Source: Planctomycetia bacterium
Lineage (GTDB): Bacteria > Planctomycetota > Phycisphaerae > Phycisphaerales > SM1A02
Length of the DNA stretch: 64,000 nt
Assembly (NCBI GenBank): GCA_005790605.1
Contig: SXUI01000068.1
Location: forward strand, 1-64,000
Direction of reading: 5' to 3'
Both the position numbers and the translations under genes were made by a program. Of this stretch, positions 36,541 through 42,525 are shown in pieces; position 1 is the first letter of the stretch, and each line of letters opens with the position of its first letter. The notes below the pieces were generated by a model. It had not been told where the DNA came from, ran no database searches, and saw only the letters and a program-made list of their open reading frames with translations.

Positions 36541-37650
36541 CTAGTTCGCGGCGATCGCGAGCTTGACGACTTCTTCAACCCGACCATTCTTCACATCAGC
36601 AGCGAAGACCTTGCCGTCGCGGCCAATGATGTGATAGTCGGGGAAGCCATCGTTGCCGTAAGCCTTTGCGGACTTACCGCTCGTGTCGATACAGCAGGGG
36701 TAGGCGATGTGCTGTTCTTTGATTGTTGCTTCCATCTTCTCGCCACCGCGTTTCGCACAGATGCCGAGTACGACGACGCCGTCCTTTGCGTACTTTTCGG
36801 CGAGCGCGTTGTTCTTCGGGATGCTCGCGATGCACGGTGCGCACCAAGTTGCCCAGAAGTCGAGCACGACAATCTTTCCTTTCAGCGATTCGAGGGAGAC
36901 CGCTGATCCATCGGAACTCGCGCTCACATCAAGTGCGGGAGCTCCGTCGAGCGAGAGGAGTTTGTCCATGATTGCGCGATGCGCCCCGTCGCCCTCAAGC
37001 TCCGAGCTGCTCACCGCGCTTCGAGCGGACCCTTGCGCGGGCTTTGGTGCGTCGGCCTTTCCTTCGCTTGTCGTAGGCTCCGCGAGCAGTTGCTCAGCCA
37101 CTTTTCGAACGAATTCCGGTTGCAATCCAATCGCTCGCACAATTCCCGCTCGATCCACGACGGCGTAGGTTGGGAAAAACGACACGCTCCACGCTTCGAT
37201 CGTCGCAGGCGTCGCAACGGCATTGGCGTACGTCATTTTTTGTTCAGCGATCATCGCATCGAGTTTCTCGACGCCGCGCTTCGGCTCGTGCGCACCGATG
37301 ATGACGAGCCCCTTGTCGGCAAGTTCCTTCGACATCGCGACATTCTCCGGAATCGCTGCGCGGCAGGGTCCACACCATGTGGCCCAGAAGTCGATGACGA
37401 CGACCTTCCCCTTGAGTTTGGTGAGGTCGAGCGCGGTGCCGCGCCAGTCCTTCAACTCAAGTGCGGGCGCGGGCTTTCCCGTCATCGCGATGTGCTTCTG
37501 CGCGGCATTGCCGATTCGCCAGAACCAAGCCTCAGGGAATGCGTTGTCGGCCGTCGCGTTCGCGGTGGGCGGCGAAGGAGGAGCCGCATCCTGTGACCAT
37601 GTAGACGGGATGAGTGCGAGGCAGACGAGAACAGCGGTGTGCATGAACAT
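36541..37650 (-). CDS. Exported tandem TlpA/thioredoxin protein
   Basis: 369 aa. Signal peptide (MHTAVLVCLALIPSTWS) and two TlpA-like domains of about 150 residues each. Domain 1 has VVVIDFWATWCGPCRAAIPEN; domain 2 has IVVLDFWATWCAPCIASIPKN. Both keep the CxxC and the cis-Pro region (SFFPTYAVV, DGFPDYHII). The similarity points to an internal duplication. A periplasmic thiol-disulfide reductase or cytochrome-maturation helper is likely. AGGAG is upstream of ATG 37650; the repeat-protein gene ends 30 bp upstream on the same strand, so they form an operon. Confidence 0.9.
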   Translation of the reverse strand: MFMHTAVLVCLALIPSTWSQDAAPPSPPTANATADNAFPEAWFWRIGNAAQKHIAMTGKPAPALELKDWRGTALDLTKLKGKVVVIDFWATWCGPCRAAIPENVAMSKELADKGLVIIGAHEPKRGVEKLDAMIAEQKMTYANAVATPATIEAWSVSFFPTYAVVDRAGIVRAIGLQPEFVRKVAEQLLAEPTTSEGKADAPKPAQGSARSAVSSSELEGDGAHRAIMDKLLSLDGAPALDVSASSDGSAVSLESLKGKIVVLDFWATWCAPCIASIPKNNALAEKYAKDGVVVLGICAKRGGEKMEATIKEQHIAYPCCIDTSGKSAKAYGNDGFPDYHIIGRDGKVFAADVKNGRVEEVVKLAIAAN

Positions 37651-37680: not shown

Positions 37681-39039
37681 CTATCTCGATGCAGAGAAAC
37701 TCTTCTTCTCCGTGCCGTCCGCATTGAATACCACAAGATCGCCAGAGCCCTTCTCGTTGGTCCCGATGCGCGCGAGATCCTTGCCTTGTGCGCTGCGAAG
37801 CACGAGCGCGCCGCCAGGTGCGTCAGCGGCAACGCCTGCTGCCACGACCGGTGCACCGGTGGCGTTCGAGATCGAAATCAACCCGCCCGTGGGGGCGGAG
37901 ACGAGCGTCACCGCGCGCTTCCCGCCGCGCGCGAGGAGGAGGGATGCTCCATCGTCCTTTCCGCCTTCCGCGACGATGACCGCATTGCCTTCGCCACTCG
38001 CGATCGCGAATCGTCCGGCGCCGTCCGCGTTCGCGGCGACTGCGAAGACTGGGAACTTCGCGGTGTTGAAGAGTTGCAGCGTCGCGCCGCTTGTTTCACC
38101 GCCACTCGCTCCCGCGAGAATGAGTGGATCTCCCTTCGCTGTGCGGCAGAGCAGGGTGCCGCCATCCTTGTTGCCCTGGAGTTCAGCGAGCGATTCTCCC
38201 GTCGGATTGACGACGCTGACAGTTGAGCCATCGACGCCAGTCCCGAGTTTCGCGGCGCCTGCTTGATCGCCTGCGAGAATGAAACACTCCGAGCCATCTG
38301 CGCGGGCAGCGATGCGCCGCGCGCCGTCTGGAGATGCGAGATCAAACTCGGCTCCGTCAACGCCAGCTCGAATTCGCCCAACAATGCCGCCCTTGGCAGC
38401 ACTCACAGCGAGGCTTCCGCCTTCTGCTGCCGCACCGAGAATGATCGCGTCGCGGTTCTCCGCATCGCCGATGCGAAGCGCGGCGCCAGCCGAACTAGCG
38501 CTCGCGCCAAACACTGCATGACCTCGCGCGTTAGAGAGTGCGATCGCTCCGCCGTCATCGTTGGACGCGAGGGTCGCGCTGCCGCGGCCTGCAGTCGCAA
38601 CTTCAACGCGGCCGCCCGCACGCGCCGCTGTTGCCGTCATCGCGATGTCGCCGTTGGAATTCCAGATTGCAAAGTCGCCTCCGCCGATCGCTGCGCTCGC
38701 ACGAAGCACATTCTGGCCACTCTTGTTCCAGAGATCGAGCCGCCCTCCGTCGGGCGCTGCCGTGGCGAGGAAAACGACGCGATTCTGGCTGTCAACGACT
38801 TCCAGTCTGCGCGTTTGGACGAGGGGCGAAACTTCTTGTCCGATCGTCGCAAAGCCTAGAAAACCAGTGCAAAGCAGGCTGATCGTCCCCACGGCAACGC
38901 ATCGCCAACGGCGGGTTTCGCTGCGAGCACGCGCGAGATCCAGTCGGAGTGCGCTCTCGAGTGTCAGAACTCGGGCAGCGAGTTGTGCGGAATCGAGAGG
39001 CGAAGTGATTGCGGGTGGAATGGCGGTGCTTTCAGTCAT
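37681..39039 (-). CDS. Membrane-anchored glycine-rich repeat protein
   Basis: 452 aa. A short cytoplasmic N-terminus, one membrane segment (VAVGTISLLCTGFLGFATI), then about 380 residues of roughly 28-residue repeats that alternate GG-L-x-(I/V) strands with AN/GD turns (GGRLDLWNKSGQNVLRASAA, GGDFAIWNSNGDIAMTATAA, GGSLAVSAAKGGIVGRIRAG). This suggests a beta-solenoid or beta-helix facing the periplasm. No enzyme motif is seen. It heads a two-gene operon with the tandem TlpA protein. Family not recognised. Confidence 0.7.
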   Translation of the reverse strand: MTESTAIPPAITSPLDSAQLAARVLTLESALRLDLARARSETRRWRCVAVGTISLLCTGFLGFATIGQEVSPLVQTRRLEVVDSQNRVVFLATAAPDGGRLDLWNKSGQNVLRASAAIGGGDFAIWNSNGDIAMTATAARAGGRVEVATAGRGSATLASNDDGGAIALSNARGHAVFGASASSAGAALRIGDAENRDAIILGAAAEGGSLAVSAAKGGIVGRIRAGVDGAEFDLASPDGARRIAARADGSECFILAGDQAGAAKLGTGVDGSTVSVVNPTGESLAELQGNKDGGTLLCRTAKGDPLILAGASGGETSGATLQLFNTAKFPVFAVAANADGAGRFAIASGEGNAVIVAEGGKDDGASLLLARGGKRAVTLVSAPTGGLISISNATGAPVVAAGVAADAPGGALVLRSAQGKDLARIGTNEKGSGDLVVFNADGTEKKSFSASR

Positions 39040-39102
39040 AAGTGCTTCTCAATCCGTGGGGAGCGAACGGCGTGCGGCTCGGAGATGCAGGAATCGGCGT
39101 TT

Positions 39103-39123
39103 AGCATACGGATCTCGTAAACT
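39103..39123. promoter_or_regulatory. Possible divergent -10 boxes (TATGCT minus, TAAACT plus)
   Basis: On the minus strand TATGCT (39103-39108) lies about 63 nt before the repeat-protein ATG. On the plus strand TAAACT (39118-39123) lies about 73 nt before the oxidoreductase ATG. Neither gene here shows the close leaderless spacing. Confidence 0.25.
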
Positions 39124-39196
39124 CTCCGCTTCGTCCCTCACGAAACGGATTGCGACTCTCAGGGTTGCATCAGTTCAGCACAATTGGAGCACCAGG

Positions 39197-40471
39197 ATGT
39201 CGCAGAAGTCCAAGACCAGCAGCGCACCAACGAACGCGGTCGCGTCGTCGCTTCCCACGCCCGGCGCAGGGCTCGGGGTGGCGATGCTGGGGACGAAATT
39301 CATGGGCCGCGCGCACTCCAATGCATGGGGGAAGTGCGCACAGTTCTTCGATCTCAAACGGCCTCCTCGCATGATCGTCGCCGCAGGACGCAACGCTGCG
39401 GAGACCGAGGCATTCGCGCGGCGCTGGGGATGGTCGCGTGCATCAACACAGTGGCGCGATGTCCTCGACGACAGCGCGGTTGATTTGGTCGATGTCTCCA
39501 CACCGAATCACCTGCACGCGGAGATGTCGATTGCCGCCCTTGAAGCGGGGAAGCATGTGGCGTGCGAGAAACCTCTTTCAAGCACACTCGCAGATGCCAA
39601 GCGCATGGTGCTCGCTGCGCGCGCGGCGAAGAAGAAGGGTGTGCAGACATTCGTATGGTTCAACTACCGCCGTTGCGGCGCAGTCGCGCTTGCGCATCGG
39701 TTGGTGAAGGAAGGCAAGCTGGGTCGGATTTTTCATGTGCGAGCGACATACTTGCAAGATTGGGGCGGTCCGGACACGCCGCTCCTCTGGCGCTTTCAGT
39801 CGGATCAAGCAGGCTCCGGCGCGCATGGCGATCTCAACGCGCATCTGATCGATATGGCGCGATTTATCACGGGCGACGAAATCGTGGACGTCGTCGGCGC
39901 GATCGAGGAGACCTTCATTAAGGAGCGCGCCATCGTTGCGGCGAATACCGAAGCGCTCGGCGCGAGCAAGAAGGCGAAGGGGAGCAAAGGCGCATCGAAG
40001 AGCGCGGGGAAGTCGACCGTCGATGACGCGGTGCTTTTTCTCGCGCGATTCAAGCACGGCGCCGTTGCAAGTTTCGAAGCGACGCGTCTAGCGACCGGCA
40101 ACCAGAACCGCAATTCCATCGAAATCAACGGCGAGTATGGAAGTGTGAAGTTCGACTTTGAGCGCATGAATGAACTGCAGTGGTGGGATCACACGCTCGA
40201 ACCGAAACTGCGCGGGTGGAGCCGAATCATGTGCACCGACGCCTCACATCCCTACGGAGGCCACTACTGGCCGGCGGCGCATGTCGTGGGGTATGAGCAC
40301 GGATTCGTGAGTCAAGCCGCTGACATTGCTGCGGTGCTCGGAGGCGGGGCAAGCGTGGTGCCGCTCCCAGACTTTGAGGATGCGCTGAAGACCCAGTGCG
40401 TGCTCGAAGCAGCCATTCGCAGTGCGCGAGAGCATCGTGCAGTTCCTATTCGCGAACTCGACAAGTTCTGA
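39197..40471 (+). CDS. Gfo/Idh/MocA-family oxidoreductase with Lys-rich insertion
   Basis: 424 aa. GVAMLGTKFMGRAHSNAWGK (Rossmann GxxG variant), DLVDVSTPNHLHAEMSIAAL, VACEKPLSSTLADAK (EKP), and GSGAHGDLNAHLIDMARFI with the catalytic His. A basic insertion at about residues 255-280 (GASKKAKGSKGASKSAGK) is unusual and probably a surface loop. A Shine-Dalgarno GGAG precedes ATG 39197. The long open frame further upstream is a shadow of the repeat gene. The SHC-like gene starts 12 bp after its stop, suggesting a two-gene operon. Confidence 0.9.
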   Translation: MSQKSKTSSAPTNAVASSLPTPGAGLGVAMLGTKFMGRAHSNAWGKCAQFFDLKRPPRMIVAAGRNAAETEAFARRWGWSRASTQWRDVLDDSAVDLVDVSTPNHLHAEMSIAALEAGKHVACEKPLSSTLADAKRMVLAARAAKKKGVQTFVWFNYRRCGAVALAHRLVKEGKLGRIFHVRATYLQDWGGPDTPLLWRFQSDQAGSGAHGDLNAHLIDMARFITGDEIVDVVGAIEETFIKERAIVAANTEALGASKKAKGSKGASKSAGKSTVDDAVLFLARFKHGAVASFEATRLATGNQNRNSIEINGEYGSVKFDFERMNELQWWDHTLEPKLRGWSRIMCTDASHPYGGHYWPAAHVVGYEHGFVSQAADIAAVLGGGASVVPLPDFEDALKTQCVLEAAIRSAREHRAVPIRELDKF

Positions 40472-40482
40472 GCTGCGCTGCG

Positions 40483-42525
40483 ATGCGTCACGACACCTCT
40501 TCGATGCAACTCTCCATCGAGCGGATGGAGGCACACCTCGAACGCGCGGTCGTCGCACTGACCCGTGCGCAACGAGCCGATGGACACTGGCGCGGTGAAC
40601 TTGAGGGAGACTCGACGCTGCAGAGCGAGTACCTCTTGATGAAGTGGATCCTCAGTCAAGAGGCTGCGCCGCTTGCAGATGGCTCGGATGCCCAACAACT
40701 GCAGCGGATGTGCAATCACCTTCGCGCGCAGCAACGAGCGGACGGGGCATGGAGCGCAACTCCCGACTCAACGATGGATCTCTCCGCGAGTGTCAAGGCG
40801 TATTTCTGCTTGAAACTCTTCGGTGACGCGCCGTCCGATCCACACATGGAACGGGCGTGCGCACGCATTCGACATGCCGGAGGTGCCGAGCGGTGCGATG
40901 CGTTCTCAAAATTTTTCCTCGCGGCGCTCGGCCAGATCGCATGGGACACGGTCCCAGCGATTCCGCCGGAGATCGTCGACCTTCCTCGGTGGTGCAGTCT
41001 TCATTTGCAGAACTGGAGCGCGCCCATCCGCACGCTGCTTGTTCCGCTCGCGATTTTGTCGTCACGTCGACCGACGCGCGCACTCGGACCTACCCTCGGA
41101 ATCGATGAGTTGTTCGTGGATCAAGTTGCGCGCCACCAGATGCACTGGAGTGGGCAAGGGAGCGCGGCTTGGAGCGCGCGCTTCCGAAAGCTCGACCGAT
41201 TCTTGAAGTGGCTGCATCGCTTTGGTCCGTTTGCGACGCGGCAGGGATCTCTCAATCGCGCCTTCGCATGGTGCGAGGAGCGAGCAGGTCAAGATGGTGC
41301 AGCAACCACGGACGGATTGGGCTCGAGTTTTTCGCCGATGGTGGCGTGGCAACTCGTGCTCCACGCGATGGGATATGCACGAACGCACCCGCTCGTGATT
41401 CGCGCCGAGCGCGATCTCGATGCGCTGCTCGTGCGCGTTGGCGCTCCCTCGGAGGAGTCGCTTCGCGTTCAGCCGCGTCTCTCTCCGGTTTGGGATACAG
41501 CTCTCGCACTCAATGCACTTGCGGATTGCGGCTTCGATGCCAGCGACTCTTGCGCGCAGCGAGCCTCTGCATGGTTACGCACGAAGGAGTGCGTTTTTCG
41601 CGGAGATGGGGTTTCGCATGGGGGGTCTGATGCGAGGGGAAGTAGCTGGAGCTTTGAGTACCACAATGCGTACTACCCAGATTGCCTAGACACGGCGATC
41701 GTCTCGATGTCACTGTTGCGGACCGGGGATCGAGAGGCGATGGCCGCAAGCGCGCGAGGAGTGAGTTGGCTTCTCAAGATGCAAAACAGCGATGGCGGGT
41801 GGGCTGCGTTTGACCGAACAGAGCCTCACACAGTGCTCGCATGTGTACCGCTTGCGGGGCATCACGCCATGCAAGACCTCTCTCGCGCCGGCATCACTGG
41901 GCGCGTGCTTGAGTTGTTCGCGTGGAGTGGGATGCAGCGGGAACATGCGAGCGTTCGCGATGCGCTGGTGTTCATCGCGCAGCAGCAGCAGGCCGATGGT
42001 TCCTTCGCCGGAGCGAGCGCTGCGACTTCGATCTACGAGACTTGGCAGTCGGTCATCGGGCCAGTGCGTTGCGGCGTGCATCCGTCAGAGCCGTGGGTGC
42101 AGCGCGCGGGTGTGTGGATGAAATCAGTGCAGAAGCTTGACGGAAGCTTTGGGGAGAGTGCTGCGCCGAAAGGCGCGGGTGTGTCCACGGCAAGCCAGAC
42201 TGCGTGGGGTGCGATGCTGCTGCTCGAAGTCTTTGGCAAAGATGACCCTGCTGTAGCTCGCGCGATCGCGTGGTTATGTCGGACGCAACTTGATGATGCG
42301 AGTGCGATCGATCCGATTTCGAATCCAGATCAAGACGAAGCGGGGACTTGGTCGGAGCGCGCATGCACTGGATCGGCGCTCGCGGGTGCCAACAATCTTC
42401 GTTACCAATACTTCCGTCTGTACTTCCCCGTCATGGCGATTGGGCGATTCTTGAGTGCACACGGCGCGGGCATCGCGGGCAAGCGCCTCCGCGACCGTGG
42501 GGTTCGAGCGGGTTTGTTCGGTTAG
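40483..42525 (+). CDS. Squalene-hopene cyclase homologue lacking the catalytic Asp
   Basis: 680 aa, full length for an SHC (about 630-720). Two alpha-barrel halves with QW motifs (AQRADGHWRGEL, QNSDGGWAAFD, QQADGSFAG, QKLDGSFGES) and family blocks EYLLMKWIL, DAFSKFFLAALGQI, SPVWDTALALNALA, ETWQSVIGPV. The DxDD motif that protonates the substrate (PDVDDTA) reads PDCLDTA at residues 399-405, so the middle Asp is Leu. Either the enzyme is inactive as a classical cyclase or it acts by another mechanism. It lies directly after the Gfo/Idh gene. No other hopanoid gene was recognised. Confidence 0.9.
   Translation: MRHDTSSMQLSIERMEAHLERAVVALTRAQRADGHWRGELEGDSTLQSEYLLMKWILSQEAAPLADGSDAQQLQRMCNHLRAQQRADGAWSATPDSTMDLSASVKAYFCLKLFGDAPSDPHMERACARIRHAGGAERCDAFSKFFLAALGQIAWDTVPAIPPEIVDLPRWCSLHLQNWSAPIRTLLVPLAILSSRRPTRALGPTLGIDELFVDQVARHQMHWSGQGSAAWSARFRKLDRFLKWLHRFGPFATRQGSLNRAFAWCEERAGQDGAATTDGLGSSFSPMVAWQLVLHAMGYARTHPLVIRAERDLDALLVRVGAPSEESLRVQPRLSPVWDTALALNALADCGFDASDSCAQRASAWLRTKECVFRGDGVSHGGSDARGSSWSFEYHNAYYPDCLDTAIVSMSLLRTGDREAMAASARGVSWLLKMQNSDGGWAAFDRTEPHTVLACVPLAGHHAMQDLSRAGITGRVLELFAWSGMQREHASVRDALVFIAQQQQADGSFAGASAATSIYETWQSVIGPVRCGVHPSEPWVQRAGVWMKSVQKLDGSFGESAAPKGAGVSTASQTAWGAMLLLEVFGKDDPAVARAIAWLCRTQLDDASAIDPISNPDQDEAGTWSERACTGSALAGANNLRYQYFRLYFPVMAIGRFLSAHGAGIAGKRLRDRGVRAGLFG

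Follow-up and report, generated by a model that had tools for sequence, protein, structure and literature searches.

Squalene-hopene cyclase (SHC) genes are taken as a sign of hopanoid production, and hopanes serve as fossil biomarkers. In oxidosqualene cyclases the corresponding motif holds a single Asp (DCTAE). The SHC reaction is started by the middle Asp of the DXDD motif, and SHC have been selected by this motif together with the domains PF13249 and PF13243 (PMC9290348). The window analysed here, a stretch of 64,000 nucleotides from a planctomycete genome (contig SXUI01000068.1), encodes an SHC homologue that resembles AacSHC (PDB 1SQC) in both domains, full length, QW motifs and best fold match. 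Unlike AacSHC, the window protein is without the catalytic Asp, D447 and most cavity aromatics, falls below the TIGR01507 cut-off, and belongs to a genome without squalene synthesis. With oxidosqualene cyclase (lanosterol synthase, PDB 1W6K) it shares superfamily and fold (TM 0.78), and the single catalytic Asp of that enzyme aligns with D376 (AacSHC numbering, used throughout for cavity residues), which is Leu in the window protein; both fold and sequence place the window protein closer to SHC. Like pseudoenzymes generally (review PMC10211241), it lacks the catalytic motif in its sequence yet retains the fold. A literature search returned no open-licence paper joining squalene-hopene cyclase and pseudoenzyme, and open-licence papers on hopanoid gene loss announced no such case in title or abstract. 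Judged from sequence, the window SHC would constitute a pseudoenzyme branch of the SHC family.

The SHC homologue, its DCLD motif and its fold

The homologue, a predicted catalytically dead pseudoenzyme of 680 aa, lies at 40483-42525 (+) of the window, with its start ATG at 40483 assigned by position, 11 bp past the stop of an upstream oxidoreductase gene. PF13249 (1.5e-84) and PF13243 (1.7e-74) match over the full length, the protein aligns end to end with AacSHC, and GC by codon position is inside the range of the neighbour genes, in agreement with the initial annotation, which had described a full-length, retained gene with neighbour-like codons. The score against the NCBI equivalog TIGR01507 misses the cut-off (393.3 vs 431.1 bits).

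In the frame from this ATG, bases 41680-41691 (+) read GAT TGC CTA GAC and encode D400-C401-L402-D403, as first annotated, giving DCLD in place of DxDD. The stretch YYPD-C-L-D-TA aligns without a gap, so Leu402 (codon CTA, 41686-41688) stands at AacSHC 376, the catalytic Asp and proton donor, and the annotated loss of that residue holds; D374 and D377 are retained. The annotation had allowed that the Asp might be supplied from a shifted position, and none that could substitute for D376 was seen in the alignment with AacSHC. The closest relatives (G003 and G001a) have DCDD with the Asp codon GAT, from which CTA differs by 3 nucleotides, and a single sequencing error is therefore excluded. A clade of DCLD proteins, for which the annotation had suggested a search, did not emerge: DCLD was a singleton, found in the window only, among ~125 SHC homologues, yet active-site loss with an open frame recurs in three further lineages of this family.

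At all six tested QW positions the window SHC keeps the same pattern as G003, a live sister (6/6). The AlphaFold model has pLDDT 86 and pTM 0.88, with low confidence at an altered near-C-terminal loop, and its best fold match is AacSHC (1sqc; TM 0.87 by query, 0.93 by target); as the alignment behind the model was built from live relatives, this supports folding and does not prove it. The equivalent of AacSHC 212-240, a segment to which we assign a presumed membrane-contact role, lies at 41164-41250 (+) and is conserved at 22/29 positions vs 21/29 between live enzymes. The N-terminal part and this presumed membrane helix are conserved about as between live enzymes.

Erosion of the reaction cavity and loss of squalene supply

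Orthologues from the same order (46 genomes) were aligned, and almost all live copies in this alignment share the same cavity residues. Among 184 positions near-invariant in live orthologues, 38 are changed in the window SHC and 0-1 in sampled live copies. Losses fall on 15/32 cavity positions vs 22-23/~152 other near-invariant positions (p ~1e-4 to 2e-4), the 32 positions being the AacSHC residues that we take to line the cavity. Replacements were found at W169, I261, P263, Y267, C307, D376, D436, D447, W489, G600, F601, F605 and Y612. By alignment with AacSHC they include, all on the (+) strand, W169 to Pro (41023-41025); I261S, P263S and Y267A (41326-41346); D436G, C445R and D447G in the acid-supporting segment (41857-41892); W489 to Ser (42016-42018); and G600A, F601L, F605N and Y612F in a cavity loop (42376-42414). 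The cation-stabilising residues and the second acid are thus affected by W169P, Y267A, W489S, F601L, F605N and D447G, with W312 and F365 retained. The annotated view that the surroundings of the motif are intact applies to the QW motifs but fails for the active-site cavity around the motif, which is heavily eroded.

The window genome (3.03 Mb, 99% complete) contains one SHC, so the single copy visible to the initial annotation is the only one found; the second SHC with DxDD that it had proposed to look for was not found in this genome, and weak matches on contigs C46 and C55 are short toroid-repeat proteins rather than SHC. Squalene is synthesised through hpnC, hpnD and hpnE, names that rest here on family matches and gene order. 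All three are absent from the window genome, in which the squalene/phytoene synthase family (PF00494, SQS_PSY), and with it a squalene supply through hpnC/hpnD, had no match. In the sister genome G001, hpnC-hpnD-hpnE lie between ispH and queG, and in G003 they lie by queG, up to the contig end; ispH directly neighbours queG in G002 and the window genome, so the operon has been excised cleanly there. The window genome combines a full-length SHC with no squalene genes and no plausible squalene cyclisation, so the lipid cannot be read from the presence of the gene.

A search for hpnH located it in G001, G016 and G009, with none found in G000, G002 and G003. Squalene synthase was not detected in G103 and G118, whose SHC active sites are complete, perhaps through gaps in these metagenome-assembled genomes (MAGs). 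G089, G132, G033 and several other genomes of the order have squalene-synthase family genes without a full SHC match, possibly with carotenoids or squalene as end products.

Dead cavities in other lineages

Among the ~125 homologues, DxDD is missing only in the window protein and in the type represented by G002 and G001b, in which it reads NASD with a segment deleted. Further cases came from domain-score surveys, one of which took in 181 genomes of the family; the motif was read in part of the live-scoring genomes among the 181, and more dead cases may exist. The SHC of G135 (581 aa) has the DxDD segment deleted, and squalene synthase is absent from its genome. The SHC of G197 (688 aa; locus L216, ~2.4-4.4 kb, open frame) has DLID, a second independent DxDD variant, in a genome that retains hpnC and hpnD, so loss of squalene supply need not always have come first; G197 may make squalene without cyclising it. 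Frames are open in all four dead lineages (window, G002/G001b, G135 and G197). Truncated SHC in G248 and G249, one of them at a contig end, were left out. G001b is the dead-type, G002-like copy on contig C77 (L053, 5.6 kb) of the G001 assembly; a second SHC paralogue in G001 was rejected, as this contig shares 96% identity with G002 DNA and probably represents bin contamination by a G002-like species.

The sets of lost positions overlap beyond expectation in every pair of the four dead lineages (p 2e-4 to 6e-6), and the replacement residues mostly differ between them. I41T occurs in 4/4 and C445R in 3/4; AacSHC has Thr at 41, so I41T may be a mere return to a common residue.

The SHC tree groups the window gene with the dead G002 type (98%). 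By flanking genes the window genome falls beside live G003 (97%); their concatenate contained a QueG query that was partly misframed, and its node placing G001 has 59% support. The same new residue is present at 5/26 sites lost in both the window and G002 proteins. A single shared loss for the two was rejected on the flanking-gene grouping and the few shared replacements; as, in addition, branches are long and the sister is live, the losses are taken as parallel, which is the preferred reading.

Selection, candidate second role and gene neighbourhood

Between the G002 and C77 copies, which were dead before their split, 45 synonymous changes stand against 34 non-synonymous ones (dN/dS 0.24, p = 5e-10), and a codon model for this pair gave dN/dS 0.22 with neutrality rejected (2dlnL = 42). 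On the window branch, which includes a live phase, omega was 0.13 vs 0.07 on live branches and omega = 1 was rejected; for G135 and G197, whose branches also include a live phase, omega was 0.19 and 0.14. Neutral simulation to an equal number of lost invariant sites gave a mean of 5-8 stops, with at most 3 of 400 runs stop-free; the window gene has 0 stops. The L053 copy ends its unit, which means that its open frame does not serve any gene further downstream, and polarity on downstream genes was rejected as the cause of the open frame for the G002 type.

For a split of dN, cavity neighbourhoods were fixed independently of the losses from known AacSHC residues, which we presume to define the cavity. 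Cavity dN was 0.003-0.017 in live pairs and 0.14-0.58 in dead-live pairs (window/G003 0.243 vs live pair G003/G001a 0.017). In the rest of the protein, dN was 0.187 (0.159-0.223) for window/G003 vs 0.177 for G003/G001a, and whole-gene drift since release of the cavity predicts at least ~0.35; G197, G135 and G002 also lie below their drift expectation. These comparisons indicate that selection is retained after loss of catalysis, the strongest test being that on the G002/G001b pair and the one for the window gene being indirect.

We consider it probable that the window gene, formerly an SHC, has lost squalene cyclisation and has been retained as a non-catalytic pseudoenzyme that is probably bound to the membrane, with a second, cyclisation-independent role; the non-catalytic role raised in the initial annotation (regulation, lipid binding) is likewise probable. 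The pattern in four lineages points to such a second job for the SHC fold, most plausibly that of a monotopic membrane scaffold or lipid-binding protein, which live SHCs of this planctomycete family may share. Once squalene supply or hopanoid demand ended, the second role alone would be selected and the cavity would be free to change; D376 to Leu in the window and to Ile in G197 would fit the swap of a buried acid now useless. SHC is absent altogether from hopanoid-negative relatives, the g18 genomes among them, so some lineages can do without this role, if it is real. More tentatively, this function of the fold may be general in the family, independent of hopanoids and older than the losses, with at least four lineages having stripped catalysis and kept it. 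That cavities were lost repeatedly while the scaffold stayed constrained would be a natural experiment that splits catalytic residues from those needed otherwise, and through it a second role of SHC becomes directly testable.

It is unlikely that the gene was recently abandoned, having lost its substrate with hpnCDE and entered functionless decay, its frame still open through shortness of time or harm from misfolded or truncated products. The missing squalene genes, the relaxed cavity, the complete loss of SHC in some relatives and the faster change of G002 and G135 outside the cavity as well would all fit such decay, but a rest-of-protein dN for the window gene close to that of live pairs, and well under the neutral prediction, would not, nor would the dN/dS of 0.22-0.24 between two copies already dead before they split or frames open in four of four lineages.

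Less probable still is a class II cyclase with changed chemistry, using another acid and a non-squalene substrate in a remodelled cavity. D374 and D377 persist and structural neighbours of the model include class II cyclases of different family branches, but D447 and most cavity aromatics are gone, and the cavity residues differ across the four dead lineages with no common new signature. The different initiation mechanism offered in the initial annotation is disfavoured by the same missing aromatics and second acid, together with the lack of squalene-making genes. An assembly or binning artefact is highly improbable: all genomes compared appear to be MAGs with 1-5% contamination, but the nine-gene order around the window SHC agrees with the sister species, 38 replacements clustered around one cavity are not errors, and three other assemblies show an equal state.

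Returning to a retained pseudoenzyme, no gene partner common to all four dead SHC copies was found. The upstream gene, a Gfo/Idh/MocA oxidoreductase assigned by domain match and gene order (38561-40471, +), has a listed frame that exceeds its domain match, so its true start lies further in; it was rejected as an obligatory SHC partner, not being detected beside SHC in G135 or G197. On the (-) strand of the window, 37681-39039 encodes a 452-aa protein with no Pfam match that is conserved beside SHC in many relatives, and 36541-37650 encodes two tandem thioredoxin-like/redoxin domains in one protein. In G001 (L056, 8292-11414), sigma-factor-like and serine/threonine-kinase-like genes lie between SHC and an M1 peptidase, and L053 bears genes resembling this pair.
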